DNA of 64,000 bases from the NCBI GenBank assembly GCA_013368445.1, contig JAACJO010000015.1, positions 62,001-126,000 of the forward strand, written 5' to 3'. The notes beneath the pieces were generated by a model. It did not search any database. It was not told where the DNA came from and saw nothing but the letters and a program-made list of their open reading frames with translations. The position numbers were made by a program, and so were the translations under genes. How positions within the stretch are numbered: position 1 is the stretch's first letter; every line of letters starts with the position of its first letter. Below, one piece after another: positions 29,651 through 62,460 of the stretch. The stretch comes from Leucocoprinus leucothites. Its lineage: Eukaryota > Basidiomycota > Agaricomycetes > Agaricales > Agaricaceae.

Positions 29651-31315
29651 ATGGAACCCGCTTCAACGTCGTTGCCGGGAAATGCACCTCTATTGTAAGC
29701 ATGACTGCATCCCAGTAGACTTTCAGGCAAGCTCAAATATTATTTTTCAGATTAGGGCCACCCGTCAGTGGATGCTACACAGATATCTTGCACTGAACTG
29801 ATCGGATTTGTAGCTCATTGGTGTAGCCCTGAACTGGTGGCTTTATGGCATCTTTGTGATGCAATACTGTACGACCCTCGTCATATTGGTCTACTTCTCC
29901 AACTGACTCGTAATAAAGTTATGTATCTCAATAATAGCAGTAGAGATGGAGCGATTCTTCGAGGAGTAGGTAAGCACTTGTGAGTCTCTCCTTTGCGATT
30001 CAACTCCGCTCAATTTCTTCCCAAGTGCATTTCCTTTTCTTGCTCGACACAGCCCAAACCATAATGATAATGGACGACACCTTCTTCTGGTTTGTTCGCA
30101 ACTTCGGCGACATTAAGGCGTTGAGAAAGTTCAATCTAGCGAGTCTCGATGGCCCGCTATTGGACGCTATCATTACATTTACGGTGCAGCTAGTGTACTG
30201 CTGGAGGTTACGTATTATCGGAAAGTGGAAGGTTTTGCCTGTAATTTCTGCCATGGTGAGTGGTGTCCTAATATGTATTCATTGTTAGAGGAACTTAAAT
30301 CATTTTTCGGTAGTTCGCACTACTCTCGTGTGTGAGCGGGATGCTCGTTGGAATTCGTGTAACCATCATTTTCTAGAATGTTTCGCTTTTCTGATGACCT
30401 GCAGGATAAGATAAATCCGACTAATTTTAAAACTGCAGCCTACGTTAGTGTTCCTTACATGAACGAAGGATCTAAACCTCATATTGTACCAGGTCTGGCT
30501 ATTCGCAGGTGCTTTCACCGACATATTGATCGCCAGTTCCATGGCCTACCTGGTATGAAATACCTATTCCTTGTCCATCTAAGTTGTCCCGGGCTCATTC
30601 TATTGCTATAGCTGATGAAGTACCGAAAAGCCAATACCAGCCAAACTACGATGGCAATCGTCAAGCGAATTTTATTGCTGATACTGGAAACAAACGCCTT
30701 GACAGGTGAGGGGAAAAAGTGTTTCCTGGAATATACTAACCTCCACTTTTTACACAGCTGCATTAGCAATCGCGCTTGTCACTGTCTTCCTCGTCCCGTC
30801 AGTCACTCCTCCAGTGAGACTCCCTTGTTCATCTGCAACATATTCAATCGCTCACATGAATCCTTCCATAGGTAACCAACGTATATTTAGCACTGTAGGT
30901 ATCGATCCAAAGTGACTAGAGGATAATTCACTAAATCTCTTTTCAGTGGATACACACTCGGTAAAATGTACTGCTAGCGATAAGTATTCCTTCGATCGTG
31001 CAAGTCACTAACTGCTATATCGCTGCTAGGTACAGTAACTGCTTTATGGTGCTCCTCAACCAGCGCATCTATTACGATGGGCCCAAGGGTTCCACGAGCG
31101 AAAGTGAAACGTTTAGTTCCGTAAGCCATAGAAGTAGAGGATTCATTTCGCGTAACCGGGATGGTCTGTCCCACCCGAACCCGGCCCTGGGCCAGATATC
31201 TGTCATACGATTTACCGAGACGAGGACCGATGAACCTTCGGCAATCGAATTGAACGATACTCACAAGGCGACAAATGGTCAGGATTTCAAGTCTAGCTCC
31301 GATGATTTTGCGTGA
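29651..31315 (+). CDS. DUF6534 seven-helix membrane protein, array copy A
   Basis: Thirteen small exons follow the array plan: MEPASTSLPGNAPLL, LGPP, LIGVALNWWLYGIFVMQY, VMYLNNSSRDGAILRG, the large exon 5 (HFLFLLDTAQTIMIMDD, FTVQLVYCWRLRIIGKWK), FALLSCVSGMLVG, VWLFAGAFTDILIASSM, KRILLLILETNALT, ALAIALVTVFLVPSV, TNVYLAL, GYTLGKM, YSNCFMVLLNQRIYY. It has about seven hydrophobic helices and a polar C-tail with ISVIRFTETRTDE. The family is restricted to basidiomycetes as far as I know, with a GPCR-like layout and unknown role. Exon 7 (DKINPTNFKTAAY) differs strongly from the DPxxxRxxRPVEE loop of most copies. Copy F is the closest relative. The gene converges with P450-1. Confidence 0.85.
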
Positions 31316-31731
31316 AGATAATATGATCTGCTTTTATTAACTGACGGTTTGTTATGACCGGACTGGAGTCTATTTTGGTAGCTACTTTGGTTTTCAATTG
31401 TGTATATCAGCAATAACAGGGGTCTATCGGTTGTTCGTCCCTGCTCTACTTAGAAGAGGACAGGTGACAGGATGGGAGGCTCCGGCCCTTAGTGGAGAGA
31501 GAGAGAGGGCAAGGAACAATGGCAGGATTAGAAAGTGGCACGATACCTGAATAATCGATGACTTGGGAATGGCTGACCGCTCTGGCTGAATTCGACTACG
31601 GTACCAGTGCTAAATTTGTGGCGTTGACCATGAGAGACACTCCAAAGTTAGGAATACAAGTAATCAACAAGACAAATGATTCTTGATAAGCCTAGGGCCG
31701 GCGCTTTGAAACCCATTGAGATAACAATAGT
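31316..31731. other. Convergent 3' intergenic region
   Basis: It separates array copy A (plus) from P450-1 (minus). A GA-rich tract (31495-31515) is visible. No gene. Confidence 0.45.
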
Positions 31732-33845
31732 TCATTTGATCGGGACTCTTCTCTTGAAGGAGAACTTTGCCTTCGCACCGGGCTCCATAAACATACCAAG
31801 GAAATCCTTTGGCCTTCCAGCCTTTTCGTCTGTCAACTTGATGTCATAGTCAAGTAGAATTCGAGCAACAGCGGTCTTTAATTCGGTGGCAGCAAAGAAT
31901 CGTCCTGGGCTTTGCGTAGCAAGTTGGTCAACCAATGATCACCGATAGGGTCTCTACATTCAACTTACCATGCGCGTTTTCCAATACCGAACCCCATAAA
32001 CTCGAGGCTGAGGGACGCCAACTGCCACTTTGAAGGGTCCATATCGACATAGCGGAAGCCTTGGAATTCATACGGGTTCGAATAGATTCGCTAAATGTTC
32101 GTCAGAAATGATTCAAGGTCCAGCAGTCTGCAAAGAATTCACCTTATCGTGATTGATTGCATGACCAGCAACAGCAAAGCGGGTCCCTTTTGGAATAAAA
32201 GTACCATCGGAGAAGGTAAAGTCGCTCACGGCCAATCGGTCACTCATGACTGAACGGAATGAAGGAGTGAGTGCTTTGTGTTTGCTTCAAGGTAGTACAA
32301 GTTGCCTCACCAGCATCAGAACCATGAACCCGTTGCGACTCTTTCATAAAGCTATCTAATTTTTTCATTTTCTCGATCGAGACCTTATTCCATCCTTCTG
32401 CTTCTACGATGGTTGAAATTTCCTCCCGTAACGGCTCAATATACGACTTGTATATTGCCAAGTCAAACAGGACATGTGTCAAGATCTTCAAAAGGAAGTT
32501 AGTCTCGTCCGACTGTCATACACAAGCCATGAATGAACGACTCACAGCTGAGGTGGTACGGATCGCTGCAACATTAAGCCAGATAATACGGATGGCAATG
32601 TCGTGCAGCGTGCGTTGAGCCTCAGGTGCAGCGTTCCATAGCCAAGTAATTAGATCATTCTACAAGAAAACTGGTCAATAAGCTGAGCGGATTAGCTCCT
32701 GAGAGTAGGTAAGCTCACTGAATCTGCATCAGGGTTTTCCATGTCACCCCTTTCCAAGCGTTCCGCAAGGATGGGACGCAAGTATTCTTCGATCTCGCGG
32801 ATATTTCCTTCCGTATCAAACTGGATGCGACTTACGAAGCTGTATTCGGGACAGTTCAGCACGGGGGAATGCAAAGTGAGATCAACACGGCTCACGGTCT
32901 AAGCCATCCCGGAAGCAGGCTGAGCATTCCACCATCCTTCACTACGTGAACAGCGAATTTCTCCATTATCTCGGTGTACTTTGGGTTGGAGCCTAAACCA
33001 TTATCAGGAGTTACACAAGAAACCAAAAGCCGATGACATACTGAGCACCGGGCCAGAAAAGAACCGTGCGCTGAGCCTCGAAACAATTTGAAGGGCCGAG
33101 GGGAAAGCGGTCAGGTGTAACCAGTCTTCAAGGCGGCTTTAGCGTTAGTCGATAAGTAACTAAATGAGCATGTACCTTTGTCCGCTCCTGCAAGGAGACT
33201 CTCCAGCGTCTTATTCATTTCATCTAAAACATCAGGATAACGCGCGCCAATGTTTTTTGTCATCACGCCACGAATAACCCTAATATGTGCATCATCGGCC
33301 CGCAGCCTTGGGCTGATTGTGTGGTCAAACTGAACTGACTAGAATGCGGTGGCGTTACTTCTAGTCAGCGGCTGATTAAGCGAAGGGACTTACTGCGTCG
33401 AGAGCAGCGAGAAAAGATATTTGTTCATCGCTAGCCTTTCTCATGTCCTCTAGAAGCTCGGGACCAGCAACAACCAGAAGCCAGGAGGAAAATGTTGGTA
33501 TTTTGAATATAGGGTACTAGATTTCTACCTAAGAAAAGTAGTGTAGCGCTGCAGAAAGCAAATACCCACCTTCTCAGAACCCTCCTGGATCATCAGAGGA
33601 CCATGACGGAAGCTTCTCATGGCCCCTATCCATGAAGTGAGTACTCCAGATGGTCCTACTGTAGGAATCTTGTCGAGCTATTGCCTCTTCATCAGCGACA
33701 GCAACAAACTACAGTTGTATTGCGAATAAGACATCATACATACAGGCGAGTTTCTCTTCCTCACAGCAGCGATAGCATAGCTGAAAAAGGCAAACCCAAG
33801 AACCGCCGAGTAAGGACTGCTTGACAGGTGGTCAACGAGGTGCAT
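31732..33845 (-). CDS. Cytochrome P450 monooxygenase, copy 1
   Basis: ATG at 33845 (MHLVDHLSSSPYSAV) and stop at 31732, with more than ten exons. An N-terminal hydrophobic anchor (VLGFAFFSYAIAAV) is followed by IPTVGPSGVLTSW. The I-helix region reads RIIWLNVAAIRTTS, the K-helix ExxR is ESQR in SFMKESQR, and FQGFRYVDMDPSKW precedes the heme loop. The heme signature FMGFGIGKRACPGRFFA is complete; its cysteine codon is split by an intron (GCA TG|C). The CPGRFFA form puts it with the fungal ent-kaurene-oxidase-like P450s, which hydroxylate terpenoids and other lipophilic compounds on the ER. The substrate is unknown. Every exon reads through, so it should be active. It is paralogous to the copy at 38.2-40.3 kb. 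Confidence 0.9.
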
Positions 33846-34553
33846 GTTCAAAGTCGCTAGAACAACGTGCGACCAGAGTGGTTTTTTATATATAGATGAC
33901 CCACGCCATGCGCCTAATCACCAAGTGGAGCAGCCCTTGTGATGGTTGATACTACTCAGAAAATGATTGATGTGGCAAAAGATGAAAGTATTCAAGAAGC
34001 ATTCAAGACCTGGGCTTTTAGATCTGATCGATGATCCTTGGGGGAAAAAAAGGTCAATGCTTTCTGTAGTTAGGAACAGAGGGGTGGGTAAAACACATCG
34101 CATGAAAGGTTGACCCGAAGCTTGCATTGGTTGTTCATCCTACTGAGCCTGTTCAATTGATGATCACAAACAGACACACTCTAGTAGGAATCAAAATGCG
34201 AAAGGTTAGGTCGTTCATCAGACTCAGGCTGTCAGGTCTGCTAATCCCAGGTTTGCGTATTCACAGGCAGGCCCGCGGAGCTAGAGATCTGTTAATGTGG
34301 TGGCAAAGGTAACAGTAGTGTAGTAACAAACTCTCGGCGGAATGTGGTCATGGAGGTGAGCAGTGCGTCATGACTTGGTATGTAGAGGGCTTGAGGTACT
34401 TACGTGGGAGACCGCAATTGAGGTCAATTGGGTGTCCTTCCCACAATGGTTATGATTCAATATTCATTCATGACTGCACAATAAGCTGGAATGATTACAA
34501 GCGATTTCGTTGGATCAAGTACAAATGGCTAATAATGCTCCGAATATATTTCT
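33846..34553. other. Intergenic between P450-1 promoter and 3' end of array gene B
   Basis: The P450-1 promoter is at the left. Small frames at 33918-34582 show no family motif. Array gene B ends at 34554. Confidence 0.45.
33887..33894 (-). promoter_or_regulatory. Probable TATA box of P450-1
   Basis: TATATATA lies about 45 bases before the ATG. The adjacent sequence CGTGCGACCA (plus strand) recurs at the same place before P450-2, so the two core promoters are homologous. Confidence 0.55.
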
Positions 34554-36247
34554 TCAAACCGTGTTACCAGGGAGCGAGTTAATCAAACCCTGGCCATCGT
34601 TCGACTCAGCGTTAGCCTCAACAGCCGTTCCTATGTCCATGACTGTCCTTGATTCCTTGAATTGTAACATAGATATCGACCCGGTGGTGTGGCTCTGGCC
34701 ACTGTGTTGAGCCCAGTCACTCCCACCACCGAGAACAGCCACCGTCCCGCTGGACTTGCCGTGGTTATTATAGTAAATGCGCTGGTTGAGGAGTACCATG
34801 AAACAGTTGCTGTACCTGTGAACGGATCAGTAAGGAGTGGCTGTGCGTCAAGGATAGTGATCCGTAGTACAGTTTACCGATCACATATCCACTAGGAATT
34901 GCATGATGTTACATGATTGAGTGAAAATCCATTCAAGTTATTTCCAATGAGACTACTTACAGTGTTATGTATACGTTGGTTTTCTAACGATTTCAAGGTG
35001 AGCACTGCGAAATTGACAGATGAACGATTTGAAACCCTCACAGGGTCTGTGATTGATGGAATGAAAAAGGTAAGGACAAGTGTGAACGCAAGTGCAGCTA
35101 CGTAAGGGAGTGTGTCAATATCTTGCCGAAAAAATCCTGGTTAACCTGCTTACCTGTTACGGCGTTTGTCTCCAACGTTAACAGGAGAATTCGTTTCAGC
35201 ACAGCTATCATACTCGGGCTTATTAGACGGTTGTCTTTGCGATACCTCATAAGCTGCAAGACAGAATGAGGTTAACAAACTTTGGATAAATAAGATTTGA
35301 AACCATATACCAGGTAAGTCATAGAGGCGGCGATTATGATATCAGTAACGGCACTTGCTAGTAGCCAGAGCTAACAGCGCATCACATTAATTTCAGTCTT
35401 TTCGCTGGGACTGAGAGTGCTGACCTCCTCGACATGCCTGTACTGCCTGGCGAAGACTGGATCTATGATAACATCCTATGGCTTGTTAGCACTAGGGACT
35501 GGTACAGAATAAAGTCAAGGTTTACCTTGATGCCAATGAACATCCCAGCAACACATGAAACTAATGCAAGCTACCCAGAAAATGAATTAGCACCGTATCA
35601 GAAACAGCTTTATTCACTTACTAATGCAGTCGTCGCAGGTAAAATTGTCCACTTGCTGAGCTCTCGCACCCTCCAGCAATATACAAGTTGCACCGTGAAC
35701 ATGATGAATGCGTCGAGAAATGGACCATCGACGGTTGCAATGCTGAACTGGAATAGCGCAGTGTAATCGCTGAAATTGTAAACATACCAAAAGAACAGGT
35801 CGTACATAGCCATGAAACTCTGGATGGTGTCGAGCAAGAATATAAAATGCACTAGGGGACAGTCCGGATTAAGGTTCTATAATAATAGATCCACTCAGGT
35901 GGAGCTTTACGTACCTGCCGTTCGAGTCCATAGCTTATCTCGATGTCCACTGTTGAGGTACATGACTTCAGCCACGAATTTAGTGAAGAGATATAATCAT
36001 GAAGGTGCAGCGTGTGACGTACAGTACTGCATCACTAAGATGCCATAGAAGAACCAGTTGAGAACAATCCCAACTATCTATGAGTCCAGTCCTCAGAATT
36101 GTCTCGAAGTATTTCTGAAGTATACCAACTAACCGGTGGTCCTAGTCTATAGAAGTTTCAGTTCATAGTGTCAATGAATCTTGCAATCTCTGTGAGACGC
36201 AGTTAGACCTACATGAGTGGAGCATTGTCTGGCAAAGGTACCGCCAT
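34554..36247 (-). CDS. DUF6534 seven-helix membrane protein, array copy B
   Basis: This is the only array member on the minus strand. ATG at 36247 (MAVPLPDNAPLM); thirteen exons follow the array plan: LGPP, IVGIVLNWFFYGILVMQY, VMYLNSGHRDKLWTR, HFIFLLDTIQSFMAMYD, FTVQLVYCWRVRELSKWT, LALVSCVAGMFIGIK, DVIIDPVFARQYRHVEE, WLLASAVTDIIIAASM, KRILLLTLETNAVT, YSNCFMVLLNQRIYYNN. The C-tail has SISMLQFKESRT. All reading frames close. It is nearly a duplicate of copy D, including the promoter, in inverted orientation. The role is unknown; the layout is receptor- or channel-like. Confidence 0.85.
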
Positions 36248-36392
36248 CGATGTCAGATGCTAATGAGTGGTTCAAGGGACAAGCCAGTCCATTTAAATGG
36301 CCTTACTTTGGTTGTCCCGACTTACCTAAGGAGCACTGTAAAAGTAGTAAATCATGTTGATCCTATAGGTGGCCTGCATAACAAGTTGCTGA

Positions 36393-36430
36393 GCTGATAA
36401 TCTCAGGGCACTGTTGGAAAGATGGAAGCC
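36393..36430 (-). promoter_or_regulatory. Shared array upstream element (gene B)
   Basis: On the minus strand CCATCTTTCCAACAGTGCCC then TGAGATTATCAGC align with the element before copy D. It lies 150-180 bases before the ATG. Confidence 0.5.
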
Positions 36431-37313
36431 TAGATCGTAAAATCAAAGACGGATTATGTTCAACGGCTGCTACTGATATTAAACAGCGAGAATATGATGA
36501 GGCCTATTGTTTTAGGGAAGAATCAGACAGTTTTGGATGCCTGTAAAATACCGCAATCAATAAAATATAACTCCAAGGTAGTTCCAACGGGAACGGCGAT
36601 ATAATATTACTACTAGTTCCTATGATATTCTTGAGTTTGGCTTCAAGCTTCGCGCTCTAAGGGGTGACGACGTGGCCTAGGAAAAACCGGTCAGTCCCGA
36701 TAACGCGACATAGCTGTGTGTAGATGATTTTGATGGATCAATGTTGGATTATGAGCCGTTACACCGTGTTATCGGGCCTGTCCTGTTTTTCAGCAATTCC
36801 AAGCTGATCTGAGGCTGTGACCCATCAGCTGGTGCTCCTACCTTGCCCACTACCGTCTCCCCCGCGTTTCAGGCGGCTGCAGGAGGCAAGGTCCGCTTTA
36901 ACAAGTATTCTGAGCCTCTTCGGTCTCAGTGTCAGGCCAGAAAAAAGAGCGGCAAGCATCCATCATGCACACTACTTTCAACTTGATCGTGATGTTGATG
37001 ACGCCTAATAGATATTTTCCTTCCTCCGCCATTTCTTCTAAATCAGAACTCTGCGTCGAGTCAACATCAACGGCCATCACAACTTAAAGAAAACATTCTG
37101 CTATGTCCACGGGGCTACTGGTGACCGGACTTGGTAATTTTACTAACTAATCTGACAAGTATGTCCTGCGTCAAGCCAGTTGTTGAGTGCCAGGTGCCTT
37201 CGGTTAGGTTACAAAATATCCAAACTGGATACTGCTCTCGTTAGGGCACCAAACAATTGGGTGACCTTCCCACGATTTTCTTCGGCATTTGCCGTAACTC
37301 CCGCTCTACGTTC

Positions 37314-37351
37314 TCTCAGCCGTCCTTGTACATCTCAGCCGTCCTTGTACA
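37314..37351 (+). repeat. Two tandem copies of a 19-base unit
   Basis: TCTCAGCCGTCCTTGTACA occurs twice in a row without mismatch. It is probably a replication-slippage product. Confidence 0.85.
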
Positions 37352-38187
37352 TAAGTCGGTTAAAATATCTCGCTCTCAAAGTGGAGATGACGAGTTCAAA
37401 CGTCAGCTATCACCAGGTCAAGCCGTCTCCTTGGAACATACTATTATAGCAGGTCAGGACCTCATGACCTGCCAAGCTATCCAACATGGCGGTCATCGGA
37501 AAAGTTAGTTTACCGCCTGGAGAATGCAACTCCCCGAGCCTTGGAATTAAATAAAGGCATAATCCTAGTTAAGGTGGAGAGACAACTCCGGGAACGCACA
37601 TCGGAGCTCGTGGATTTAATGCGCAGTACCTGAGAGAACGCCGATCAGCAAATTTACCGCTAATTAGGACCCTTCACCTTCTGAGAGAAGAGGCGAGGTA
37701 CGTAGATCACGAGTAAAAGCGAGTGAAATGGACCTCATGTGTAACTGAATTGGTCCGAGTTGGCTTAGGTGCTATCCCACGATAAAATCTCAACTCGAGC
37801 CCTCGGACATGGTACATAGGCTCAGCCTGAGAGAGCCCACTTCGCAGTTTGAAATTTGACAGTTGTCAAAGAGAACCTAGACTTTTGGCTGCTACATAAA
37901 AGTTTCCAGTAGGGGCGCTAGGAAACCATAAACGGATCTGAAGCGTGTGATCCGCCTGCTAATTATCATAGAAACCAATCGCTCTTACATACTTACGGAT
38001 CGAAGTTCATCACCACCCTGACATAGGGCATACCTGTGTTCATGTATCTCACAATATATTTATCAGCGCCAATAGGCGAGGTAATACTCTACAAGCGAGT
38101 AAAAAGACAGATCCTGCCTAAGAATCCGGTTTGCGTACAAGAAGAGAATCTCTACAATATAGCTAATCAACGCTCAACTCATGCCGC

Positions 38188-40285
38188 CTATCTGGCCGAA
38201 TCTCTCTTCTTCACGGAGATCTTCGCGGTCCTGCTAGGTTCTCTAAAGATACCCGCGAAAACAGTATCTTCAGGCCTTCCAGCCGCTTCGTCTGCCAATT
38301 TGATATCGTAATCAAGCAGGATTCGAGCAAGGACAGTCTTCAATTCAGTAACAGCGAAAAATCGTCCTGGGCTATTCAGATAGAGGGAACTGGTCAGCCA
38401 ACGGTCATGTAATGGAATAATCGAATGTCACTTACCATGCCCGCCTGCCAATTCCAAATCCCATAAATTCCAAGTTGAGAGATGTCATCTGCCATTTTTG
38501 GGGGTCCATATCGACGAAACGGAATCCTTGGAACTCGTCCGGGTTGGAATATATTTGCTGTTAATACCTCAGTAACAGCGGACAGTAAAGATGTCTACCG
38601 CAAACTTACCTCGTCAAAATTGATTGGGCGACCAGCTACGGCGAAGCTCGTTCCCTTTGGAATGAAAGTGCCGTCAGAAAAGGTAAAGTCGCTCACGGCC
38701 ATTCGACGACTCGCGACTGATTAGAACAATACAGGATTGAGTACCGTGTTCCCGCTTAAATTCAGGTGAAATCGCTTACTATAGCTTGTACCGTGGCGCT
38801 GCGACTCCTTTACGAAGCTATCCAGTTTCTTCATTTTCTCAAATGAAATCTTGTTCCATCCCTCCGCGTTTACAACCGATGAAATCTCTTCTCGCAGGGG
38901 CTCAATATACGACGGGTATGCTGCAAGGTTGAATAGAACTTGTGTTAATGCCTTAATGATGAAAAGATCAGTTAAGAAGAATTCCTGAGCACAAAATAAG
39001 GTCTCACAGCTGAAGTGGTACGGATAGCCGCGATGTTGAGCCAAATGATTCGAATGGCAATGTCATGAGTCGTGCGTTGAGTCTCTCCCGCGGCGCTCCA
39101 CAACCATGAAATCATATCGTTCTTCCATAACAATAAGCCCGAATCAGGTCCTAAGAATAGAGGCCAACTCACTGATTCTGCGTCCGGCTCCTCCATAATT
39201 TCCCTTGACAGCCTCTCTTCAATGACGGGGCGGAGATAATCCTCAATTTCTCGGATCTTTCCCACCGTATCGAATTGTAGGCGGCTCACAAGACTGCAAA
39301 GATGACTTAGCGAAGAATGTTGCGCAGCGGGAGCTATGATACGTACGGTCTCAACCACTTTGGAAGCATGCTTAGCACTGCACCATCCTTTACTACGTGG
39401 GCAGCGTAAGCTTCCATTATCTCGTTGTACCTTTGGTTAGCGCCTAAAAGTGATGATTAGAAGTCGTAGACTGAATCAAGAACCAGGGACATACTGAGCT
39501 CCGGACCGACGAAAAACCGTGTACTGAATCTTGAAACAAGCTGGGAAATTGTGAGATAAACAGGTATGTCTATCCAACCTTCATAGAGTCTTAGTGTAAG
39601 CAAATGGGGACCTATCGTGATACGTACCTTTCTCAGCTCCTGCCAGGGCAGTGTCCAATGTCCTATTGATTTCTTCCAAAATGTGATTGTAGCGAGGGCC
39701 AATATTCTTCGTCATAACACTGCGGACGACCTTAATATGACAGTCATCTCCTTTCAGCCTAGGGCTGATTGTATAGTCAAATTGCGTCATCTTGAATTGA
39801 GGCTTAATCCCGGTCGATATTATGTGACAAAGGGGCACTTACCTCGTTGAGAGCGGCAAGGAAAGATATTTGTTCATCACTAGCTTTCTTCATATCCTCC
39901 AGATGTTTTGGCCCAGACACAATCACAACCCAGGAGAATAGAGTCCGTATTCTGAATATGGGGTACTAAACTGCCACTTGAACAAAGCAGTACCACCTCA
40001 AAAATAAATGCTTACTTTCTCGTAGCCCTCCTGGATCAACTGCCCCCCATCTTTCAAGGCTCTGAAAATTCCAAGGCGCGAGGTGATTATCCCAGATGGT
40101 CCTACTGTCGGAATTTTTTCAAGCTATCCAATATTTTCTTAGTAAGCAAGGAACATGGTTGGAACACGAATGGGATATCGTACGGGGTCGTTCAGTCTTC
40201 GCACAGTGGCGACGGCATAACCGAAAAGGGCAAGCCCTAGAGCAGTTGAATAGATATTGCCTGACAGGTATTCGGTGAGAGACAT
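38188..40285 (-). CDS. Cytochrome P450 monooxygenase, copy 2
   Basis: ATG at 40285 (MSLTEYLSGNIYSTA), stop TAG at 38188-38190. The exon plan is the same as copy 1. The anchor is GLALFGYAVATV, followed by IPTVGPSG. The core has RIIWLNIAAIRTTS, ExxR in SFVKESQR, FQGFRFVDMDPQKW, and the heme loop FMGFGIGRRACPGRFFAVT with the intron inside the cysteine codon. All expected motifs are present, so it is probably an active ER enzyme of the ent-kaurene-oxidase-like group. The C-terminus differs from copy 1 (EPSRTAKISVKKR versus EPGAKAKFSFKRR). With copy 1 it flanks array gene B, which suggests duplication of a P450-containing block. Confidence 0.9.
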
Positions 40286-41444: not shown

Positions 41445-43141
41445 ATGGCGCCCGCCTTGGAACCTAGTTCAACACCACCGCCTCATGCACCACTCGTGTA
41501 AGTCACAGCTATGTCCTCGCTGGTTTCAATCAGTACTGAAGTGAGATATCACATAGCTTGGGGCCACCGGTGGGTCTATTCTAAACAATCACTTCGACTA
41601 ACATGGAGCTGATAGAATCGATAGATCATCGGTGTTACACTCAATTGGTTCCTCTACGGTATTCTAGTGATGCAGTATTGTACGTACTATGGCCTACACT
41701 TATCCACTCTCCTCCTCACTTGCATTGAAGTTATGTATCTCAATAATAACACCAAGGACAAGAAGTGGCTCCGAGCAACGGGTACATCATGTTACATGGC
41801 TTTGACTTCTCAACAGCTTCACTAAAGCCCTTCCTCAGTGCATTTCCTGATGGCACTTGACACAGCCCAGACCTTGATGGCAATGGACGACATCTTTTAT
41901 TGGTATGTTTACAACTTCGGCAACTACAGCGCGCTGCTCGAGTTCAACATCGCGACTATTGATGGGCCGTTCTTGGATGCCCTTATCATGATCACGGTGC
42001 AACTCGTCTATTGCTGGAGAGTCTGGGTTCTTGGGCGGTGGAGGGTCGTCCCGATTATTGCCTCCTTCGTAAGTGATCTCAAATCTCCGCCGCCGATGGC
42101 GAGACTAATTCCGTCTGTCAATAGCTTGCGTTCGTTTCGTGTGCTTGTGGGATGTTTATTGGCATCAATGTAACGCTCCCTATTCTCTATCTCCGTTCCC
42201 TTGACTGACGGACCACAGGACATCATTGTCGATCCCATCACTGCCACGAGATTCAAGCCTGTGGAACTTGTCAGTATTTTCTGGTCCACCCAAAGAGGGC
42301 GTAAATCTAACGAAAAGATTAGACCTGGTTGTTTGCAAGCGCCGTCACTGATGTGATGATCGCTTGTTCCATGGCTTACCTGGTATGCATCGTCGAAATT
42401 CTAAAATGTCTAATGATCGTTGGCCTCATTCCTTTGCACAGCTTCTCAAATATCGACAAGAGAAGTCAAGCAGGTCGACAATGAGCCTTGTGAAGAGAAT
42501 TCTGCTGTTGACACTTGAAACCAACGCTGTGACTGGTAAGCAAGCGAGCTGTTATTATCCCTAGAAGACACCTGACTTTTTTCGTTTACATAGCTGCGTT
42601 GGCGATTGCACTTATTACTGCCTTCCTTGTCACTTCGATTGAACCTCCGGTGAGAATTCCCCGTTCACAGTATCTGCTGTCAGAAGTTGCTCAGACGTAT
42701 TGATCTACTGTAGAAAACAAACGTATACATGCCAATGTGAGTTGCAATTTACACAGCTCAGGGAGATCTTCGCTCAATCATTCAATTTTTAGCGGTTATA
42801 TCATCGGCAAAATGTAATTGAATCCATGTCGTTATAATTTCACAGCCACTCGATACTGATCCGTTTACAGGTACAGCAATTGCTTCATGGTGCTCCTCAA
42901 CCAGCGTATCTATTATGAGAAACCAACGAAGACTAGCGTGACGATGAACTCACTCAGTGGTGCGAGCGACCTTGGTCGGATCCAACAAGGTGCCCAGAAC
43001 CAGACTACCGGCTCGATATCTATGATACGGTTCAACGAGTCAAGGACAATGATGGACACAAGGACAGCTATTGAGTCCAACGCTGGTGCGAAGGATGGTC
43101 AGGATTCGATGAAGTCTGTCCCTTCAGGCGATTATGCTTGA
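41445..43141 (+). CDS. DUF6534 seven-helix membrane protein, array copy C
   Basis: ATG at 41445 (MAPALEPSSTPPPHAPLV). The exons give LGPP, IIGVTLNWFLYGILVMQY, VMYLNNNTKDKKWLRA, HFLMALDTAQTLMAMDD, ITVQLVYCWRVWVLGRWR, LAFVSCACGMFIGIN, DIIVDPITATRFKPVEL, TWLFASAVTDVMIACSM, KRILLLTLETNAVT, ALAIALITAFLVTSI, TNVYMPM, GYIIGKM and YSNCFMVLLNQRIYY. The tail carries SISMIRFNESRTMMD. The GKM methionine codon is split AT|G across intron 12. Copy H is the closest relative (WVLGRWR). It has about 350 residues, seven hydrophobic segments, intact frames and unknown function. Confidence 0.85.
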
Positions 43142-44611
43142 TCCTGAGGAGTATTCCGGAGTCGGAGGTTCATCTGTCGTTCGATGAACAAATTTTACGA
43201 TATTCTGTTGACATAGGTTGATGGAAAGGATTTCATGATTGATGTTGGTTCTGATTTTGAAGGTTTGCGTGCGATCATGTATTGGAGGAAATTAAACAGG
43301 AACGTATATTAATACTAGCGATTAAGTTTGTTCCCCGACCACCAGCGTTTGATATGTAAAGTAGAAATTTTAAAAAATCTTCCTGACGCATGATGCTTTA
43401 TCCTTTGACCTCTATCATCATGAGAACAGGCAGTTGAGAGAAGCACTGCGATAATAGTCTCATCAACAACATCATACGGCAGTTCTGTCCTGGCTTCACC
43501 CTAAGATACGGGCATCCGTTTTGCTGGGTCCGGCTTCCAACCTTTTTTTATTCAACTTCATGTTCGCCGATCAAAATGATACTCCGAGTAGAATTATTTC
43601 TGTATGTTGGATCATGGGAGCTGCATCCAAATCGGATACTGTGTAACCTAACCGATGCGTAGGCACTCAGCAGTTGGTTTGACACAGGACCTACATGTCA
43701 GGTTAGCTAGTAAAAATACCGGGTCCGGTTACCAGATTGATCGTGGCCCCGTGGACATAGCGGAATGCTTTCTTTAATTCGTGATGGTCATTAATGTCGA
43801 CTCGGCGCCGAGTGCAGATTCAGATGAAATGGTGGAGGAAGGAAATGATTTATTAGACGTCGTTCACATGACGATCAGCTTGAAGGCAGTGTGCACGATA
43901 GATGTTTGTCGCTTTTTTTTTATGCCTGAGATAGAGATAGAAGAGGGTTAGAATTCTTGTTAACGTGGGCCATGCCTCTTGCCGCCGCCTGAAACGTGGG
44001 GGAGACGGTAGTGGGAAAGGTGAGCCCACCAGTTGATGATGGACCGCAGGACCACGTTGTCACCTCTTGGAGGGTGAAGCTTGAAGCCGCACTCGAGAAT
44101 ACATGAACTAGTAGTAACGTTGCCGTCGCGGTTCCTGTTGGCACTATCTGGGGGTTATATTTGTCGATTGCGATGTTTTACAGGCATCCAAACCTGTCTG
44201 GTTTTTCTCTTCAACAATAGACCTCATATTCTCGCTGTTTGATCACCTCAGTAGTACCGGTTACACAGAATCTAACTTTAATTTTATAGCATCGTTCTTC
44301 ATTGTCATGAGGCCAGATCTTGTACCAGTTCAAGTGATGGTTACCCTTCCTTCAGCGAATTTGTGCATAATTTATGGGGGAGGCTTTCGACTTTGCGTGT
44401 AGTAATACTCCATCGTTACCCATGCGGTTTCCCTAAACCTAGCCACACACGCAAGTTAGTTCGCCTGCTGATACGAAATTGTAGTGTGAGTATGCTTTCC
44501 CTAACCCTCAAATGCTCCCAGGATTCGGTTCGATCACTTAAAATAACAATGCGTGACCAGCCCTTTTGAGGGCGCTATGATGATGGAACATGACAAGTAG
44601 CCAAGTGGGTA

Positions 44612-44652
44612 GGCTTCCATCTTTCCAATAATACCCTGCCTGGGACTATCAG
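44612..44652 (+). promoter_or_regulatory. Shared array upstream element (gene D)
   Basis: CTTTCCAATAATACCCTGCC followed by TGGGACTATC, about 190 bases before the ATG. It is the clearest match to the copy H element. Confidence 0.55.
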
Positions 44653-44738
44653 CAACTTATCAGCAAAACCACCTATAGGACTAGCATTTACCACTTTTAG
44701 AGTGCTACTTAGGTGGGTCGGGGCACCCGAAGTGAGGA

Positions 44739-44745
44739 TATATAA
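44739..44745 (+). promoter_or_regulatory. Probable TATA box of copy D
   Basis: TATATAA in GGATATATAAATTG, 72 bases before the ATG at 44817. Confidence 0.5.
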
Positions 44746-44816
44746 ATTGACCGTCATTGTTTGCTGAACATCATTCGACTAGCTTGTCCCTTGAGCTGTT
44801 TAACAGCGTCTCACAT

Positions 44817-46513
44817 ATGGCGACACCATTGCCGGATAACGCTTCACTCGTGTAAGTCTAATTGCGTCTCACGTTAATTGTATGGTGGACTGACATGATA
44901 AAACCTCCCTAGACTAGGACCACCGGTTAGTTGGCGTACTTCGGAAAATACTTGGAGGTTACGTTTTCTGAGGACTAGCCTGCTTATAGATAGTTGGGAT
45001 TGTCCTCAACTGGTTCTTCTATGGCATTCTAGTGATGCAATATTGTGCGTCACATCCTGCACCTTCGTGATTATATCTCTTCACTAAGTTCGTGGCTGAA
45101 GTCATGTACTTCAACAGTGGAAATCGAGATAAGATATGGATTCGAGCAGCAGGTACGTAAAGTTCTACCTGAGTGGATCTATTATTACAGAACCTCGATC
45201 CGACTCTCGCCTAGTACATTTCATATTCTTGCTCGACACCATCCAGAGTATCATGGTTATGGACGACCTGTTCTTTTGGTTTGTTTACAATTTCAGTGAT
45301 TATACTGCACTATTCAAGTTCAACATTGCAACCGTCGATGGTCCATTTTTCGACGCGTTCATCATGTTCACGGTGCAACTTGTATATTGCTGGAGGGTGC
45401 GAGAGCTCAGCAAGTGGACAATTTTACCTGCGATGACTGCATTCGTGAGTGAATGAAGCTGTTTCTGATACGGTGCTGATTCATTTTCTGGATAGCTTGC
45501 ATTGGTTTCATGTGTTGCCGGGATGTTCATTGGTATCAAGGTAAACTTTGACTTGATTTCATGCCAGTTCCTAGTGCTAACGAGCCACAGGATGTCATCA
45601 TAGATGCAAGCCTGGCCAGGCAGTACAGGCCTGTGGAAGAGGTCAGTGGTGTCTGTTTCAACAACCATGCTGGATCTAATACGACCTGCTACTAGCTCTG
45701 GCTACTAGCGAGTGCTGTTACTGATATCATAATTGCCGCTTCTATGGCCTACTTGGTATGTGGTTTCAAATTCCTGTTTATCCAACATTTGTTAATCTCA
45801 TTCCCTCTTACAGCTAACGAGGTATCGCAAAGACAACTATGTAATAAGCCGGAGTATGATGGCCGTGTTGAAGCGAATTCTTTTGTTAACGCTGGAGACA
45901 AACGCCGTGACAGGTGAACAGGCTAAGGGCTTTCCTATCAGATATTGACACTCCTTTACCTAGCCGCATTTGCGATCGCCCTCGTTCTTACCTTTTTTAT
46001 TCCGCCAGTCGCAGAACCTGTGAGGGTTTCGAATCGTTCATCTGTCAACCTCGCAGTGCTCACTTTGAAATTCTTAGAAAACCAACATAAACATAGCACT
46101 GTAAGTTGTATCATTGGAAATAACTTATAGGGATTTTCACTCAGTCATGTAACATCATACAATTCCTAGTGGATATATCATCGGTAAACTGTACTACGGG
46201 TCCCTATCCTTGACGCACAGCCACTCCTTACTGATCCATTCACAGATACAGCAACTGTTTCATGGTACTCCTCAACCAGCGCATTTACTACAATAACCAC
46301 GGCAAGTCCATCGAGATGGCAACCACGCTCGGTGGTGGGAGTGACCTAGGCCGGGCTCAACACAGTGGTCAGACCCACACGACCGGGTCGATATCCATGA
46401 TACGATTCAACGAATCAAGGACAGCGATGGGCACCGGGACGGCTATTGAGGCTGACATCGGGTCGAAGAACGGTCAGGATTTGATCAAGTCGCTCCCTGG
46501 CGATGTAGTTTGA
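44817..46513 (+). CDS. DUF6534 seven-helix membrane protein, array copy D
   Basis: ATG at 44817 (MATPLPDNASLV). The thirteen-exon plan is LGPP, IVGIVLNWFFYGILVMQY, MYFNSGNRDKIWIRA, HFIFLLDTIQSIMVMDD, FTVQLVYCWRVRELSKWT, LALVSCVAGMFIGIK, DVIIDASLARQYRPVEE, WLLASAVTDIIIAASM, KRILLLTLETNAVT, AFAIALVLTFFIPPV, KTNINIAL, GYIIGKL and YSNCFMVLLNQRIYYNN. The tail has SISMIRFNESRTAMG and ends LPGDVV. It is the closest relative of copy B and belongs to the VRELSKW subgroup with G. All junctions keep frame. Function unknown. Confidence 0.85.
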
Positions 46514-49826: not shown

Positions 49827-51530
49827 ATGGCACCTGCTCCGGTACCACTACCAGCCAATGCATCCCTCGTGTAAGTCTAAATTGTACCTTCAATGGATCT
49901 AGACACTCACAATAAAACTTCATAGACTGGGACCACCAGTGAGTCAACTATGAAAAACGTTCCGTCCTCGCGCTCACGAGACTGGATTCCCAGATCGTGG
50001 GGATTGTCCTCAACTGGTTCTTCTATGGCATCTTTTTGATGCAATACTGTACGTCTTATGTTCTATAATCATAACTAACTTTATTCTGACTCTCACTCTG
50101 ACGCAAGTCATGTACCTCAACAATAGCAGGACAGATAGCAAATGGCTTCGAGCGGTCGGTATGTAGAGTTCCGTAATTTCCATCTGCAAGGCCAGCGCCA
50201 AGACCTCTCTCAGTGCACCTTCTGCTCCTGCTCGACACTGTACAGAGCGTGATGGCAATGGATGACCTCTTCTATTGGTTTGTCTACAATTTCGGCGATT
50301 ACAACGCATTGTTTCACTTCAACGTTGCAACCGTTGACGGTCCTTTCTTGGATGCCTTGATAATGTTCACGGTGCAACTCGTATACTGTTGGAGGCTACG
50401 GGAACTTGGAAGGTGGAAGATCTTGCCTGCAGGCACTGCCGTGGTGAGTTTCCTGCAATCACCCTTTCTAATCGTGGTAATCATTGTTCACATTTTCGGT
50501 AGCTGGCGCTTGTTTCGTGTGTTAGTGGGGCTTTCGTTGGTATCAATGTACGCCTTTTCTCTCTCTCTCAATACCGGCTCTCCATACTGATGGCCTACAG
50601 GATGTGATTGTAGATCCTGTCACCAGCAGGAATTTCAGGCCAGTGGAAGAGGTGGGCAAACTCAGCTGTGGTGTTTTGTAAAAAGAAACTATGGGAGTCT
50701 AACGGGATCTACTCCTAGCTCTGGCTAATTGCGAGCGTTGTTACGGATATCATCATTGCTTCCTCCATGGTTTATCTGGTAAGCAGGCTCAAATCCCCTG
50801 TCCCGGGGTTTGCCGGCCTCATTCCGTCTTTGCAGCTCCTGAGGTATCGAAAGGAGAGACTGAGCACGGGTCTGATGGATACGTTGAAACGTATCGTTTT
50901 ATTAACGCTGGAGACAAACGCCGCGACAGGTGAGTAGGCGGAGGCCCCTATTTCGAAAGAAGTTGACTCTTACTTGTTACGCAGCTGTCTTTGCAATCGC
51001 GCTCGTCCTTACCTTCTACATCCCACAGATTGCAGAACCTGTAAGTCTTCCTTCTGGATACTCATTTGCTAAGCTCAATTATCTTTTTCTCAGCTAACAA
51101 ACGTTAACATTGCATTGTATGTCCCCTTCAAATTGTCCAAAAATCTTCAACCGCTTAATGGCTTTTCAGGGGCTATATTATCGGAAAATTGTGCTACTTT
51201 ACCGCTCGCGTGAACTTGACAGTCACTCATTATCATTCTGTTTACAGGTATAGCAACTGCTTCATGGTACTCATGAACCAGCGCATCTATTACAATACAC
51301 AAAACAAATCCAGCATTACAATGGGCTCATATAGCACCGACACCCAAGGCAGAAGCACACACAGTGGTCAGACTCAAAGCGCAAGACAGCTTTCTACGAT
51401 ACGGTTCAATGGGCCGAGGACAACCACAGAAATGGAGACGGATGCACCTTCACAAATTCCCATGGTTAGTATAACAAAGGCAGAAGAGGGCCAGGGCTCG
51501 ATGAACTCCTCCACTAGCAACGTGGTATGA
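49827..51530 (+). CDS. DUF6534 seven-helix membrane protein, array copy E
   Basis: ATG at 49827 (MAPAPVPLPANASLV). Exons: LGPP, IVGIVLNWFFYGIFLMQY, VMYLNNSRTDSKWLRAV, HLLLLLDTVQSVMAMDD, FTVQLVYCWRLRELGRWK, LALVSCVSGAFVGIN, DVIVDPVTSRNFRPVEE, WLIASVVTDIIIASSM, KRIVLLTLETNAAT, VFAIALVLTFYIPQI, LTNVNIAL, GYIIGKL and YSNCFMVLMNQRIYYNT. The tail has LSTIRFNGPRTTTE, a divergent form of the tail motif, and a longer acidic end (KAEEGQGSMNS). It belongs to the VRELSKW-related subgroup but is its most divergent member. Frames are intact. Function unknown. Confidence 0.85.
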
Positions 51531-52277: not shown

Positions 52278-53935
52278 ATGAATTCTACTTCAGCCAAGGT
52301 GCCAGACAATCTGCCACTTTTGTAAGTTAGCCCTTTGCCCCGCCTGTTACCTGGACGAACTTACGAGTGATCTTCTCATAGGTTAGGACCGCCGGTAATT
52401 TCACTATAGTAAACCACGCCAAGGCCGCCCTCATTAACGAATACATAGATCATTGGCGCTGTCCTCGTCTGGTTTCTATATGGCATCTTAGTGGTGCAAT
52501 ATCGTATGTTATGCATTTCACTGTTAATTCTCCTTTGAAATCCTTATTTTCACTAAAGTCATGTATCTCAATAACGCCAGGCCCAAAGACAGGAAGGTCC
52601 TTCGAGGGGTAGGTATGTAGACATCTGTCTACTTTTTAGCGCCCTTACTAATGCCCTCCAGTACACTTCATATTCTTCCTTGACACTATTCAGACCTTGG
52701 TGATAATGGACGATGTCTTCTTTTGGTTTGTTTACCACTTCGGCGATTTCTCTGCCCTATCCGAATTCAATCTCTCGAGCGTTGATGGCCCATTGTTGGA
52801 TGCAATCATAGCATTTACCGTACAGCTTGTGTATTGTTGGAGGGTATGGGTCATCGGTAAGTGGAAGGCTTTGCCAATAGTCACGGCTCTGGTAAGTCTC
52901 CTTCAAAGGGCCGGGATTGTTCTATTGAGAGAAGTCGACGAAGCTGATTCTGAGTAGGTTGCACTTGCTGCATGTCTGAGCGGGATGGCTGCCGGTATTC
53001 ATGTAAGCTCCAGTTTCTTGATGTCAGTTTCGCAATTGCTTATAGATTGTAGGGTATAATAGAATCATCCCATACCGAAGCCGTCAACGTCAGTGGCCCT
53101 GACACAAGAAAAGTCACGAGGCTAATTCGACACTAGGTCTGGCTGATTTCAAGCGTTATCACTGATATATTAATTGCGGGTTCCATGGTTTATCTGGTAT
53201 GTATTCACTAACTCATATCTAAGAATTGGTTGGCTCATCCCATCCTCGAAGCTCATGAAGTATCGGACAGAGACAGCAAGTAGAAATACAATGGTTATCT
53301 TGAAACGAATTTTGTTATTGACGCTGGAAACAAACGCGCTGACCGGTGAGTAGAAGAGCTGCTATCTTCAGGAAGAACTGACCCTACCCCCTTCCTTAGC
53401 CGCAGCCGCGATTGGCCTTGTCATTGCCTTCCTCGTCCCATCAATTGCTCCTCCAGTGAGATTTCCTTGTCACGCGTTTCAACTCCGGTCCCTTAGACGT
53501 ATTGTTCTCTACAGAAAACCAGCATATACCTGATACTGTAGGATTTGACTGCAGATAATTACAGGGTTTGGACTGACTTCCTTTTCAGTGGTGATACACT
53601 CGGTAAAATGTGGTCTGATCATTGGCCCTTTTATTCTTGTGGCTATTTATTTCGTATTTTATTACAGGTACAGCAACTGCTTCATGGTACTACTCAATCA
53701 ACGCACATACTATAGAACAGCTGGCAGGGTCATGGGGGTGACAGGGTCATTGAATTGGGAAAGCTATCAAGGTAGAGGATCTACTACGCCAAACCAAGGT
53801 GAAATCATAGGCGAGGCATCCGCGATACGGTTTACGGAGGCACATACAGATGAACACACATGCATTGAGATGAATGTTGTTCATAGGTCAAAAGTCGGCT
53901 CGGAGTTTGGGTCGATCCCCCGCGATCTTGTATGA
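52278..53935 (+). CDS. DUF6534 seven-helix membrane protein, array copy F
   Basis: The start is taken as ATG 52278 (MNSTSAKVPDNLPLL), which matches the exon-1 length of its relatives. An upstream in-frame start would add a long unrelated tail. Exons: LGPP, IIGAVLVWFLYGILVVQY, VMYLNNARPKDRKVLRG, HFIFFLDTIQTLVIMDD, FTVQLVYCWRVWVIGKWK, VALAACLSGMAAGIH, GIIESSHTEAVN (exon 7, no DPxxxR motif), VWLISSVITDILIAGSM, KRILLLTLETNALT, AAIGLVIAFLVPSI, KTSIYLIL, GDTLGKM and YSNCFMVLLNQRTYY. The tail has ASAIRFTEAHTDE. Copy A is the closest relative; the two share loss of the exon-7 motif. Function unknown. Confidence 0.82.
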
Positions 53936-56347: not shown

Positions 56348-56386
56348 AAGCCTCCACCTTCCATTAATACCTCGCCTGAGATTATG
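56348..56386 (+). promoter_or_regulatory. Shared array upstream element (gene G)
   Basis: TTCCATTAATACCTCGCCTG followed by AGATTATGG, about 155 bases before the ATG. Confidence 0.55.
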
Positions 56387-56469
56387 GTCACATAATCAAC
56401 CTTTCCCAATGGCATTAGTTTACTTCGCCATCAAAGAGGATGCTTCGGCGAACCGGGATGCCCGTATGA

Positions 56470-56476
56470 TATAAAT
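56470..56476 (+). promoter_or_regulatory. Probable TATA box of copy G
   Basis: TATAAAT in TGATATAAATGC, about 45 bases before the ATG at 56519. Confidence 0.5.
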
Positions 56477-56518
56477 GCAGGCCACACAAGCTAAGCTACC
56501 TCCTCCACCTCCTCACAA

Positions 56519-58218
56519 ATGGCGCCTACTGCGACACCGTTACCGGGCAATGCGTCACTTGTGTAAGCCTGAATTGCGTCTTCGATTGACTTTGAAAGTA
56601 CTGAGATGATAAATTTCACAGACTGGGGCCACCAGTGAGTCAGCTCCGCAAAACGCTTCGTTTTTGCGATCCTGAGACCGAATTCGTAGGTAATTGGGAT
56701 CGTTTTCAACTGGTTCTTTTATGGCATCTTAGTGATGCAATACTGTACGTCCCATATCGAACTCTCAAGATTGGCCTCTCCTCACATCGTCTCCAATCAA
56801 GTTATGTATATCAATAATGGCAGGAAAGATAAGTTATGGCTGCGAATAGCAGGTACGTAGAGTTGTACAGTTGATCTTGGAGACCTCACCTAAATTAACT
56901 TCCAGTACATTTCATGTTCCTGCTTGATACTATCCAGAGCATCATGGTCTTGGATGATCTCTTCTACTGGTATGTTTACAACTTCGACAACTACACCGCG
57001 CTCTTCTCGTTCAACATCGCAACCGTCGATGGACCGTTCTTTGATGCCTTCATCATGTTCACGGTCCAAATCGTGTACTGCTGGAGGGTGCGAGAGCTTT
57101 CGAAGTGGAAGTTTGTACCTGCGCTCGCTGCTTTGGTGAGTGTGGCCCAAGATTTCCGCTGTGGATTAGGGCCAAACCGCTTTTCCCTTAGCTTGCACTC
57201 GTTTCATGCGTTGCTGGGATGTTCATCGGTATTAAGGTAAGCCTTTAGTCTTTGTATTCTATCCCGGCCCTCGATATTGACAAACTATAGGATGCAATTA
57301 TAGAACCCTCCACTGCCAGCAGATACAGACCAGTGGAAGAGGTCAGTTTGCTTAAATCCGAAAAAGTAGCGGAATGTGAATCTAATGGGATACGCTACTA
57401 GCTTTGGCTATTAGCGAGCGCTATTACCGATATCATAATCGCTTGCTCCATGGGTTATTTGGTACGCGGACTCACATTCTCATTTATTCTGAGTTTAAGA
57501 GTCTTATCCCGTCTTTGCAGCTCATGAGGTATCGAAAAGAGAAAATAGATCAAAGCATCCTAGCTCCGGTGAAACGAATCCTTTTATTAACGCTGGAGAC
57601 GAATGCGGTGACGGGTAAGTAGATTATGGGTCCTTCTCTAGAATGTGCTGACCTTTGCTTTTTTCACGTAGCCGCATTTGCGATCGCGCTCGTCCTTACC
57701 TTCTTCATTCCATCAATCACAGAACCTGTAAGAGCTCTTATATCTGTCATTCCATCATGACTCAAGTGAATTGTATTCACTCAGAAAACCAATGTAAACA
57801 TTGCACTGTAGGTCCCATTGCAAATAGCTGAGAGTGATCTTTACTCAATCATTCAACTCTTAGCGGCTATGTCATCGGTAAAATGTACTTTGATTGTCGC
57901 CTTCGTAACTTTATGGCTGCTAATCACACTTTCATTTGCAGGTATAGCAACTGTTTCATGGTGCTTCTCAACCAGCGCATCTATTACGATGAACCCGAAA
58001 AATCCAGCATGATGGTAATGAACACACTCGATAACGCGGGTAACGAGGGCAGAACGGACCACGATAATCAAACCACAGGACAATATCCAACCCTGCCGTT
58101 TAACGAATCAAGGACGTTTATGGAAAGGACAAATGGACCTGCACAAGTCCCATCGGACGGTGTTAATGAAGCGAAGGGTCGAGAGTCCATGAAGTCCGCC
58201 TCCAGCTCGGCAGTATAA
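56519..58218 (+). CDS. DUF6534 seven-helix membrane protein, array copy G
   Basis: ATG at 56519 (MAPTATPLPGNASLV). Exons: LGPP, VIGIVFNWFFYGILVMQY, VMYINNGRKDKLWLRIA, HFMFLLDTIQSIMVLDD, FTVQIVYCWRVRELSKWK, LALVSCVAGMFIGIK, DAIIEPSTASRYRPVEE, WLLASAITDIIIACSM, KRILLLTLETNAVT, AFAIALVLTFFIPSI, KTNVNIAL, GYVIGKM and YSNCFMVLLNQRIYYDE. The tail has the motif variant TLPFNESRTFME and ends SASSSAV. It is of the VRELSKW subgroup, close to D. Frames are intact, about 350 residues, function unknown. Confidence 0.85.
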
Positions 58219-60770: not shown

Positions 60771-62460
60771 ATGGCGCCGTCCGCATTGCCAGGCAATTCT
60801 GCGCTCATGTAGCTCTAAATTTGCTTTATGTGCATTTCTGGTTGTACTGACATTGCGAAACTTCAATAGTCTGGGGCCGCCGGTGAGTATCTTTTAAAAT
60901 ACTTAACGCTGACGCTCCTAAATGCTTTGCTTGATAGATAGTTGGAATTGTTCTCAACTGGTTCTTCTATGGCATCTTGGTGATGCAGTATTGTGCGTCT
61001 CACACCATATCCCTGATAATTCTCGCTCCCTTATATCTACACCAGTTATGTATCTCAACAACGAGAATAAAGATAAAAAGTGGCTACGGATAGCAGGTAC
61101 GTCGAGATCTACGGTCTATTTTCTATGAATTTCACTCAGACTGTTTCTCAGTCCATTTCATATTCTTGCTTGATACTATACAGAGCATCATGGCCATGGA
61201 CGATGTCTTCTTTTGGTATGTTTACAACTTCAACGATATACTTTCGTTGTTCAAGTTCAACATCGCAACTATCGATGGACCTTTGTTGGATGCCCTTATC
61301 ATGTTCACGGTGCAACTTGTGTATTGTTGGAGGGTGTGGGTACTAGGGAGGTGGAGGATCGTACCCATATGTGCTGCCTTTGTAAGTGCTCTTGAAGGTT
61401 AGTTATATGGACAGTTGGGTTGATCCAGATAGCTCTCGCTGGTTGCGTGTGGCTGCGGAATGTTTATCGGAATCAACGTAAGCTTCTCTTCTCTACATTA
61501 TCACCCTTGTGCCAACAAAACACAGGATATAATCGTAGATCTAGCGACTGCTAAACGACTCAGGCCTGTGGAAGAGGTACGTTATCCCAATCTGTTGAAA
61601 TGAGCGTGAACCTCACGGAATTCTAGACCTGGCTATTAGCGAGTGCCGTTACTGATGTCACGATTGCCTGCTCTATGGGCTATCTAGTATGTGATGCTGA
61701 TATTATTCATCTGAGCTTCGTCAAACTTGTGTTGTTCCCACAGCTCATGAAATATCGAAAAGAGAAAACAAGCAAGAGTACAATGGCCCTTGTTAGACGA
61801 CTTCTGTTGTTAACTTTGGAAACGAACGCGGTTACCGGTGAGCAGAATGATGGTTATTGTCATCGAAGATATTAACTCTTATCTTTACTCAGCCGCAATG
61901 GCGATAGCGCTTGTCACGGTTTTCTTTATCCCATCAATCAGAGAACCCGTGAGGCTTCCTCTTTCATGTATATCATTTAAATTTGCTGAAAGGATCTCCA
62001 CTCGCAGAATGCCAATATATACGAGGCCCTGTATGTCTTTGATCTCAGTGATTAAGAGAATTTTTTGCTTATTCGTTTACTTTACAGCGGCTATACTATC
62101 GGTAAACTGTATGTCTACTATTGCGCCGAGAAACTTACAGTCACTTATCATCATTTTGTTTATAGCTACAGCAATTGTTTCATGGTGCTCCTTAATCAGC
62201 GGATCTATTACCATACATCCGAAACAATCGTTGAGGGGACTCAAACTTCATTTGGCTTTGCGAATCGCCGGAGTACAGATAATCGCAATGCGTCCGCCAA
62301 CCAAAATCAAACAGCAGGAACAGTTTCCGTGATACAATTCTCAGAGACAAGGACGGATGCTGAAAGTGGCGGAACGGAAATGGGTGGCATCCTTGAAACC
62401 AAAGGCAACTTGAAGCCTGTGGGCTCACGAGAGTTTGGAGGAGAAACGACCATTGTTTGA
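60771..62460 (+). CDS. DUF6534 seven-helix membrane protein, array copy H
   Basis: ATG at 60771 (MAPSALPGNSALM). Exons: LGPP, IVGIVLNWFFYGILVMQY, VMYLNNENKDKKWLRIA, HFIFLLDTIQSIMAMDD, FTVQLVYCWRVWVLGRWR, LSLVACGCGMFIGIN, DIIVDLATAKRLRPVEE, TWLLASAVTDVTIACSM, RRLLLLTLETNAVT, AMAIALVTVFFIPSI, NANIYEAL, GYTIGKL and YSNCFMVLLNQRIYYHT. The exon-6 acceptor needed care: only CAGATAG|CTCTCG gives the family sequence. The tail has VSVIQFSETRTDAE and ends EFGGETTIV. Copy C is the closest relative (WVLGRWR). This is the last copy in the window. Function unknown. Confidence 0.85.

Follow-up and report, generated by a model that had tools for sequence, protein, structure and literature searches.

Introduction

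DUF6534 proteins make up 96% of the largest cluster of unassigned seven-helix proteins in a 2025 survey of 1357 fungi (PMC12842992; here and below, as far as its main text goes), which proposes, on the basis of machine learning and AlphaFold-Multimer models with G-alpha, that they act as G protein-coupled receptors (GPCRs). The array of DUF6534 and P450 genes described here, which begins in a 64,000-nucleotide stretch of the Leucocoprinus leucothites genome (contig JAACJO010000015.1, positions 62,001 to 126,000, forward strand; the window), belongs to the same family. An initial annotation of the window had stated that DUF6534 proteins have no assigned role. That statement is dated by the candidate GPCR class of the survey; a tested role was not found in the literature searched, nor was a report of the array or of a DUF6534–P450 pair (main texts in part, with supplements outside the scope). 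In the portions of other papers covered, the family is mentioned in passing, in a Pfam list for Ganoderma and as one carbon dioxide-regulated transcript of Flammulina.

The survey confines Ste2-like receptors to Ascomycota. Class XIV Pth11-like receptors of Pezizomycotina likewise form a large lineage-specific receptor family, 4.2% of which lie within biosynthetic clusters (PMC12842992); the domains that they carry, PF05730 and PF20684 (from the portion of PMC13308352 covered), are not among the Pfam matches of the array proteins. To the survey, whose main text lacks the terms Foldseek, structural similarity and tandem and whose P450 passages do not deal with DUF6534, we add the nearest solved fold, with a Ste2-like prediction for two distant DUF6534 members, the anatomy of the array with its true size and history as reconstructed from sequence, and an apparently conserved linkage of two P450 genes (P450-A and P450-B) with the DUF6534 copy c3.

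Predicted fold and proposed function of the DUF6534 proteins

We propose that the array encodes seven-helix plasma-membrane receptors with a Ste2-like predicted fold, members of the large Agaricomycetes family DUF6534, and we give this explanation, including the mechanism outlined below, a probability of roughly 0.57. Ste2, the yeast mating-pheromone receptor and a class D GPCR, was the best VIA-align match of AlphaFold2 (AF2) models of two DUF6534 members among the solved structures re-ranked, in a comparison of two predicted models with no unrelated seven-helix control alongside. Both models contain seven long predicted helices and agree with Ste2 in predicted overall fold. Because the two modelled members are only about 30% identical to each other, their common Ste2-like prediction provides a structural reason to test DUF6534 proteins as GPCRs; if it is true, the class D fold extends beyond Ascomycota.

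Positive-inside counts predict an N-out/C-in topology for all eight copies in the window (weakest in c1), and conservation is higher in the inner than in the outer halves of the helices. All 90 aligned DUF6534 sequences share a lysine in helix 7 (K250 in c3 numbering) as well as the acidic residues D75 and E212 (same numbering). The description of these proteins as receptor-like in the initial annotation is supported and sharpened by the Ste2 match, the predicted topology and the inner-half conservation; as far as predictions go, all three suit receptors better than carriers.

Most likely, each copy would bind an extracellular small or lipophilic cue with the outer half of its helix bundle, which is variable, and the signal would be passed inward via the conserved inner half with its basic inner loops and the inner end of helix 7. 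A heterotrimeric G protein is probably the downstream partner, and the ligand may be produced, altered or removed by P450-A and P450-B. We consider doubtful a bolder version in which DUF6534 would be the basidiomycete branch of the class D (Ste2) fold with tens of receptors per genome, and P450-A, P450-B and c3 a self-contained signal unit whose P450s make or clear an oxidised lipophilic ligand for the linked receptors. DUF6534 proteins are numerous in Agaricomycetes, and with the Ste2-like prediction the idea that they form a large mushroom sensor set becomes directly testable.

Organization of the array

Eight DUF6534 copies (c1 to c8) occupy positions 29651..62460 of the window, from the first base of c1 to the last base of c8. 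The features are as follows (window coordinates, strand, identity; aa, amino acids):

29651..31315, +, DUF6534 c1, 338 aa, 13 exons, clade II; 416 bp from P450-A, in tail-to-tail orientation
31732..33845, −, P450-A (D9756_009061), 497 aa, 12 exons; 1:1 orthologue of L. birnbaumii g4898
34554..36247, −, DUF6534 c2, 333 aa, clade I; inverted duplicate of c4
36287..37237, −, c2 upstream block, 73–79% identical in three pieces to the c4 upstream block, inverted
38188..40285, −, P450-B (D9756_009063), 498 aa, 12 exons; 1:1 orthologue of L. birnbaumii g4899
41445..43141, +, DUF6534 c3 (D9756_009064), 340 aa; 1:1 orthologue of L. birnbaumii g4900
43618..44751, +, c4 upstream block, three pieces matching the inverted block upstream of c2
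44817..46513, +, DUF6534 c4, 335 aa, clade I
49827..51530, +, DUF6534 c5, 341 aa, clade I
52278..53935, +, DUF6534 c6, 332 aa, clade II
56519..58218, +, DUF6534 c7, 339 aa, clade I
60771..62460, +, DUF6534 c8, 343 aa, clade I; identical to protein P0004

The models of c1 to c8 were obtained with a spliced aligner written for this analysis and, except for c3 and c8, are based on homology and splice rules. Each of the eight opens with an ATG codon and comprises 13 exons, the 12 introns having identical phases throughout; none contains a frameshift or an internal stop, and c2 alone lies on the minus strand. The eight intact paralogues with one exon plan, seven of them on the plus strand, that had been reported for this region are thus borne out, as are two paralogous P450 genes among the first three copies, whose models equal D9756_009061 and D9756_009063 at every residue. 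The motifs LETNA.T and YSNCFMVL.NQR, which had been said to persist, do so in every copy; the third, VQLVYCWR, is exact in seven and reads VQIVYCWR in c7 (VQ.VYCWR in all eight). A Pfam search, which had been suggested as a check, placed all eight copies above the curated cut-off of 28.2 for PF20152 (45.8 to 62.4 bits). Its inputs were our own models for c1, c4, c5, c6 and c7 (c4 and c5 being 3 and 8 residues shorter than in the final models), the NCBI model P0002 for c2 and, for c3 and c8, database proteins identical to the final models.

Among the matches listed, database proteins identical to the final model turned up for two of the eight copies, namely c3 (D9756_009064, P0003) and c8 (P0004). 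P0004 comes from a 2,697-base contig tagged lgn; the uninterrupted c8 frame on this contig would imply spliced RNA, and the contig is probably transcript-derived. No lgn row equal to c1–c7, P450-A or P450-B was present among the matches listed (database clustered at 90%). The public model D9756_009066 (P0173) is a fusion of c5 and c6, and those of c2 (P0002) and c4 (P0001) depart from the family exon plan. A tblastn search of the window's gaps with 17 query proteins (to E 0.01) detected no decayed DUF6534 copies.

While the eight copies are real, the array does not end at 62460 as first described. In 60 kb more sequence tblastn revealed five further DUF6534 genes, c9 to c13, up to window coordinate about 83081 (C15:126599-145081, that is, window coordinates 64599-83081; c9 on the plus strand, c10 to c13 on the minus strand). 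The full array consists of 13 DUF6534 genes in about 53 kb, with the two P450 genes inside. Twelve of the 13 (c1–c8, c9, c11–c13) have 12 introns and no frameshift; c10 fits the distant references poorly, with one frameshift, and an ab initio model instead gives it an open 309-aa frame. At least 87 DUF6534 loci were counted in the genome (hand-merged list). Two other arrays were found, on C11 with 6 copies and on C37 with at least 7. A lone divergent DUF6534 gene (63.1 bits to PF20152) lies at window coordinates 111565-113359 (C15:173565). The right half of the array also contains, at about 68327-72266 and so beyond the window, a Rab-type GTPase and a protein of another kind that looks seven-helical but has no Pfam match; the ab initio model merges the two.

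History of the array

In a tree of 58 DUF6534 proteins the array genes fall into three clades, each supported at 100/98. Clade I holds c2, c3, c4, c5, c7 and c8 together with the C11 array, clade II holds c1, c6, c9, c11 and c12 with L. birnbaumii and L. gongylophorus members, and the third clade holds c10 and c13 with Macrolepiota and Agaricus proteins. The array is therefore a mixture of old lineages, and it would have grown through birth-and-death evolution within three old subfamilies. A single recent tandem burst is ruled out by the tree, given the three subfamilies and the 1:1 orthologue of c3 in another species.

Pairwise protein identity among the eight copies is 47–79% (two models then being preliminary). 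The ratio of nonsynonymous to synonymous substitution rates (dN/dS) is 0.12–0.31 in 27 of 28 pairs, one pair having no value, and these ratios are rough because dS exceeds 1 in 25 of the 27. The youngest pair is c2/c4 (dS 0.34). The sequences upstream of these two genes also match, at 73–79% and in inverted orientation, in three blocks no more than about 1 kb away. One of the two regions is therefore an inverted copy of the other, in whichever direction, and the c2 block now lies between P450-A and P450-B.

Linkage of P450 and DUF6534 genes

P450-A and P450-B match PF00067 (138.7 and 156.6 bits) and carry the haem cysteine motifs FGIGKRACPG and FGIGRRACPG, respectively, with KESQR as the ExxR motif in both. 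In a tree of 23 P450 proteins they pair with L. birnbaumii g4898 and g4899 (100/99 each), and c3 pairs with g4900 (100/100) in the tree of 58 DUF6534 proteins. These three L. birnbaumii genes have consecutive tags and are all assigned to a 41,350-base contig; taking consecutive tags to mean neighbouring genes on one contig, the linkage predates the split of the two species, and the P450-A/P450-B/c3 trio is the conserved core of the array. Absence of synteny in any relative, named beforehand in the initial annotation as an outcome that would speak against its proposal, is thus not what these 1:1 orthologues show.

A second pair is found on C20, where a DUF6534 gene (652426-654129, +) and a P450 gene (654442-656540, −) of the same clade as P450-A and P450-B lie tail to tail, 312 bp apart, like c1 and P450-A. 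The C20 DUF6534 protein is identical to P0019, and the C20 P450 differs from P0055 at 1 position in 496, both of these being lgn proteins encoded on short contigs. Descent of this pair from c1/P450-A by block duplication is unsupported, as its DUF6534 protein groups with L. birnbaumii g46/g47 (98/88) and not with c1. A third tail-to-tail pair occurs at C9:1908448-1913010 in ab initio models, a type of model that we relied on solely for genes flanking the array and for the surroundings of the C9 and C20 pairs; its P450 looks to be of a different family, with 36% identity to P450-A over only 71 residues. Ligand identity is the main gap for fungal orphan receptors, and the trio and the C20 pair represent specific receptor–enzyme candidates for it.

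The DUF6534-linked P450 clade reads AAIRTT in helix I (motif AAI(R/H)TT). Unlike most of the 120 P450-A relatives listed, which have histidine at this position (91 His, 7 Arg, 1 Pro, 21 unread), the clade has arginine, and six of the seven relatives with arginine fall in or beside it. Three of the 120 (P0063, P0075, P0089) are annotated as ent-kaurene oxidase or paxP.

Alternative explanations and flanking genes

Several results weigh against our reading. For the receptor part, the proteins have a predicted fold similar to that of Ste2, yet identity in the structural matches (PDB 7ad3, 7qa8, 7qbc) is 8–12%, and the Ste2 profile PF02116 found no match to E 10 in eight proteins or to E 1 in four, at thresholds where HMMER filters discard most matches above about 0.1. 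As the profile test failed, we do not file DUF6534 proteins under the Ste2 family; they only look like class D receptors, and a role in mating is not implied. The published proposal of GPCR function has thin support, with high-confidence receptor/G-alpha pairings in 9 of 6376 cases, all in one species (PMC12842992).

The remaining points concern the P450 link and speak for the P450s being passengers, two tandem duplicates at the array edge whose linkage in L. birnbaumii reflects slow rearrangement within the genus. We rate this as an even bet; it covers the P450 link alone and is compatible with receptor function. Genome-wide, 4 of 106 P450 loci have a DUF6534 locus within 5 kb, which is not significantly more than the 1.5 expected (p 0.066); at 10 kb the count is 5, where 2.6 would be expected (p 0.12). 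These counts were hand-compiled, with exon matches standing for genes and P450 matches within 1.5 kb merged; they omit rows on C77, C36, C35 and C69 (apparent second copies of C8, C23, C24 and C16), and both underlying loci lists are lower bounds, one P450 source search having missed the window's own two P450s. Two of the five P450s of the subfamily, C1a and C1b, have no DUF6534 match cluster longer than 500 bp in the 10-kb stretch around each, and the examined stretches of the C11 and C37 arrays contain no P450 of the P450-A/B subfamily. The want of further lgn rows described above points the same way. So does the promoter: TGACCCA/GACCCAC occurs upstream of c2, c3, c4, c5, c7, c8, P450-A and P450-B, but as the best of about 4,000 7-mers it is weak after correction, and as the site of a common regulator it failed, being present in 1 of 22 held-out upstream regions against 11% of 600-bp background stretches (of the 31 genes modelled besides the eight copies and two P450s, the 22 that had a usable start). 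In c3, c7 and c8, where it lies at a similar distance, the site is probably shared by descent.

Passengers would not readily account for the C20 pair with its P450 of the same clade, nor for the third tail-to-tail pair on C9, although the P450 there is apparently of another family. Within the subfamily (P450-A, P450-B, C20, C1a and C1b) three of five P450s are linked to DUF6534 genes, or two of four with the array counted once (p 0.0012, a comparison chosen after the pairs were seen). Synteny of the two families thus stands for the L. birnbaumii orthologues and the C20 pair, but not as genome-wide adjacency, as a shared promoter site or for all members of the subfamily, and the interpretation given in the initial annotation is supported in part.

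It is unlikely that the locus is a metabolite cluster whose P450s act on a lipophilic product that the membrane proteins then transport or handle, without any sensing. A DUF6534 gene is reported from a dimethylallyl-transferase cluster of Laetiporus sulphureus (PMC9602373, in the portion covered), and the window contains genes for an MFS transporter and an amino-acid permease at 20-27 kb. However, no polyketide synthase, non-ribosomal peptide synthetase, terpene cyclase or similar core biosynthetic enzyme was found in the eight gene models (five in the window, three beyond) and two gap open reading frames scanned, a set that left out most of the 37 models, two large window models (3024-7015 and 14154-18644) among them; the two gap frames have no Pfam match. 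Moreover, 13 paralogs per two P450s would be a poor ratio for a transporter, and the nearest fold among the solved structures re-ranked is that of Ste2. Light or aldehyde sensing, with the invariant helix 7 lysine binding a retinal-like chromophore as in microbial rhodopsins, is highly improbable, as PF01036 was unmatched to E 10 in eight proteins, the lysine would lie about one turn off what we take to be the retinal lysine of 2brd when the aligned range is roughly compared without gaps, and Ste2 scores about 3 Z higher.

The left flank (1067-28910) encodes, along with the transporter and permease just mentioned, a 2OG-Fe(II) oxygenase (AlkB-like), an alpha/beta hydrolase and an M28 peptidase. 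A zinc-finger gene near 28.5 kb presumably resembles DPH3, judged by eye only.
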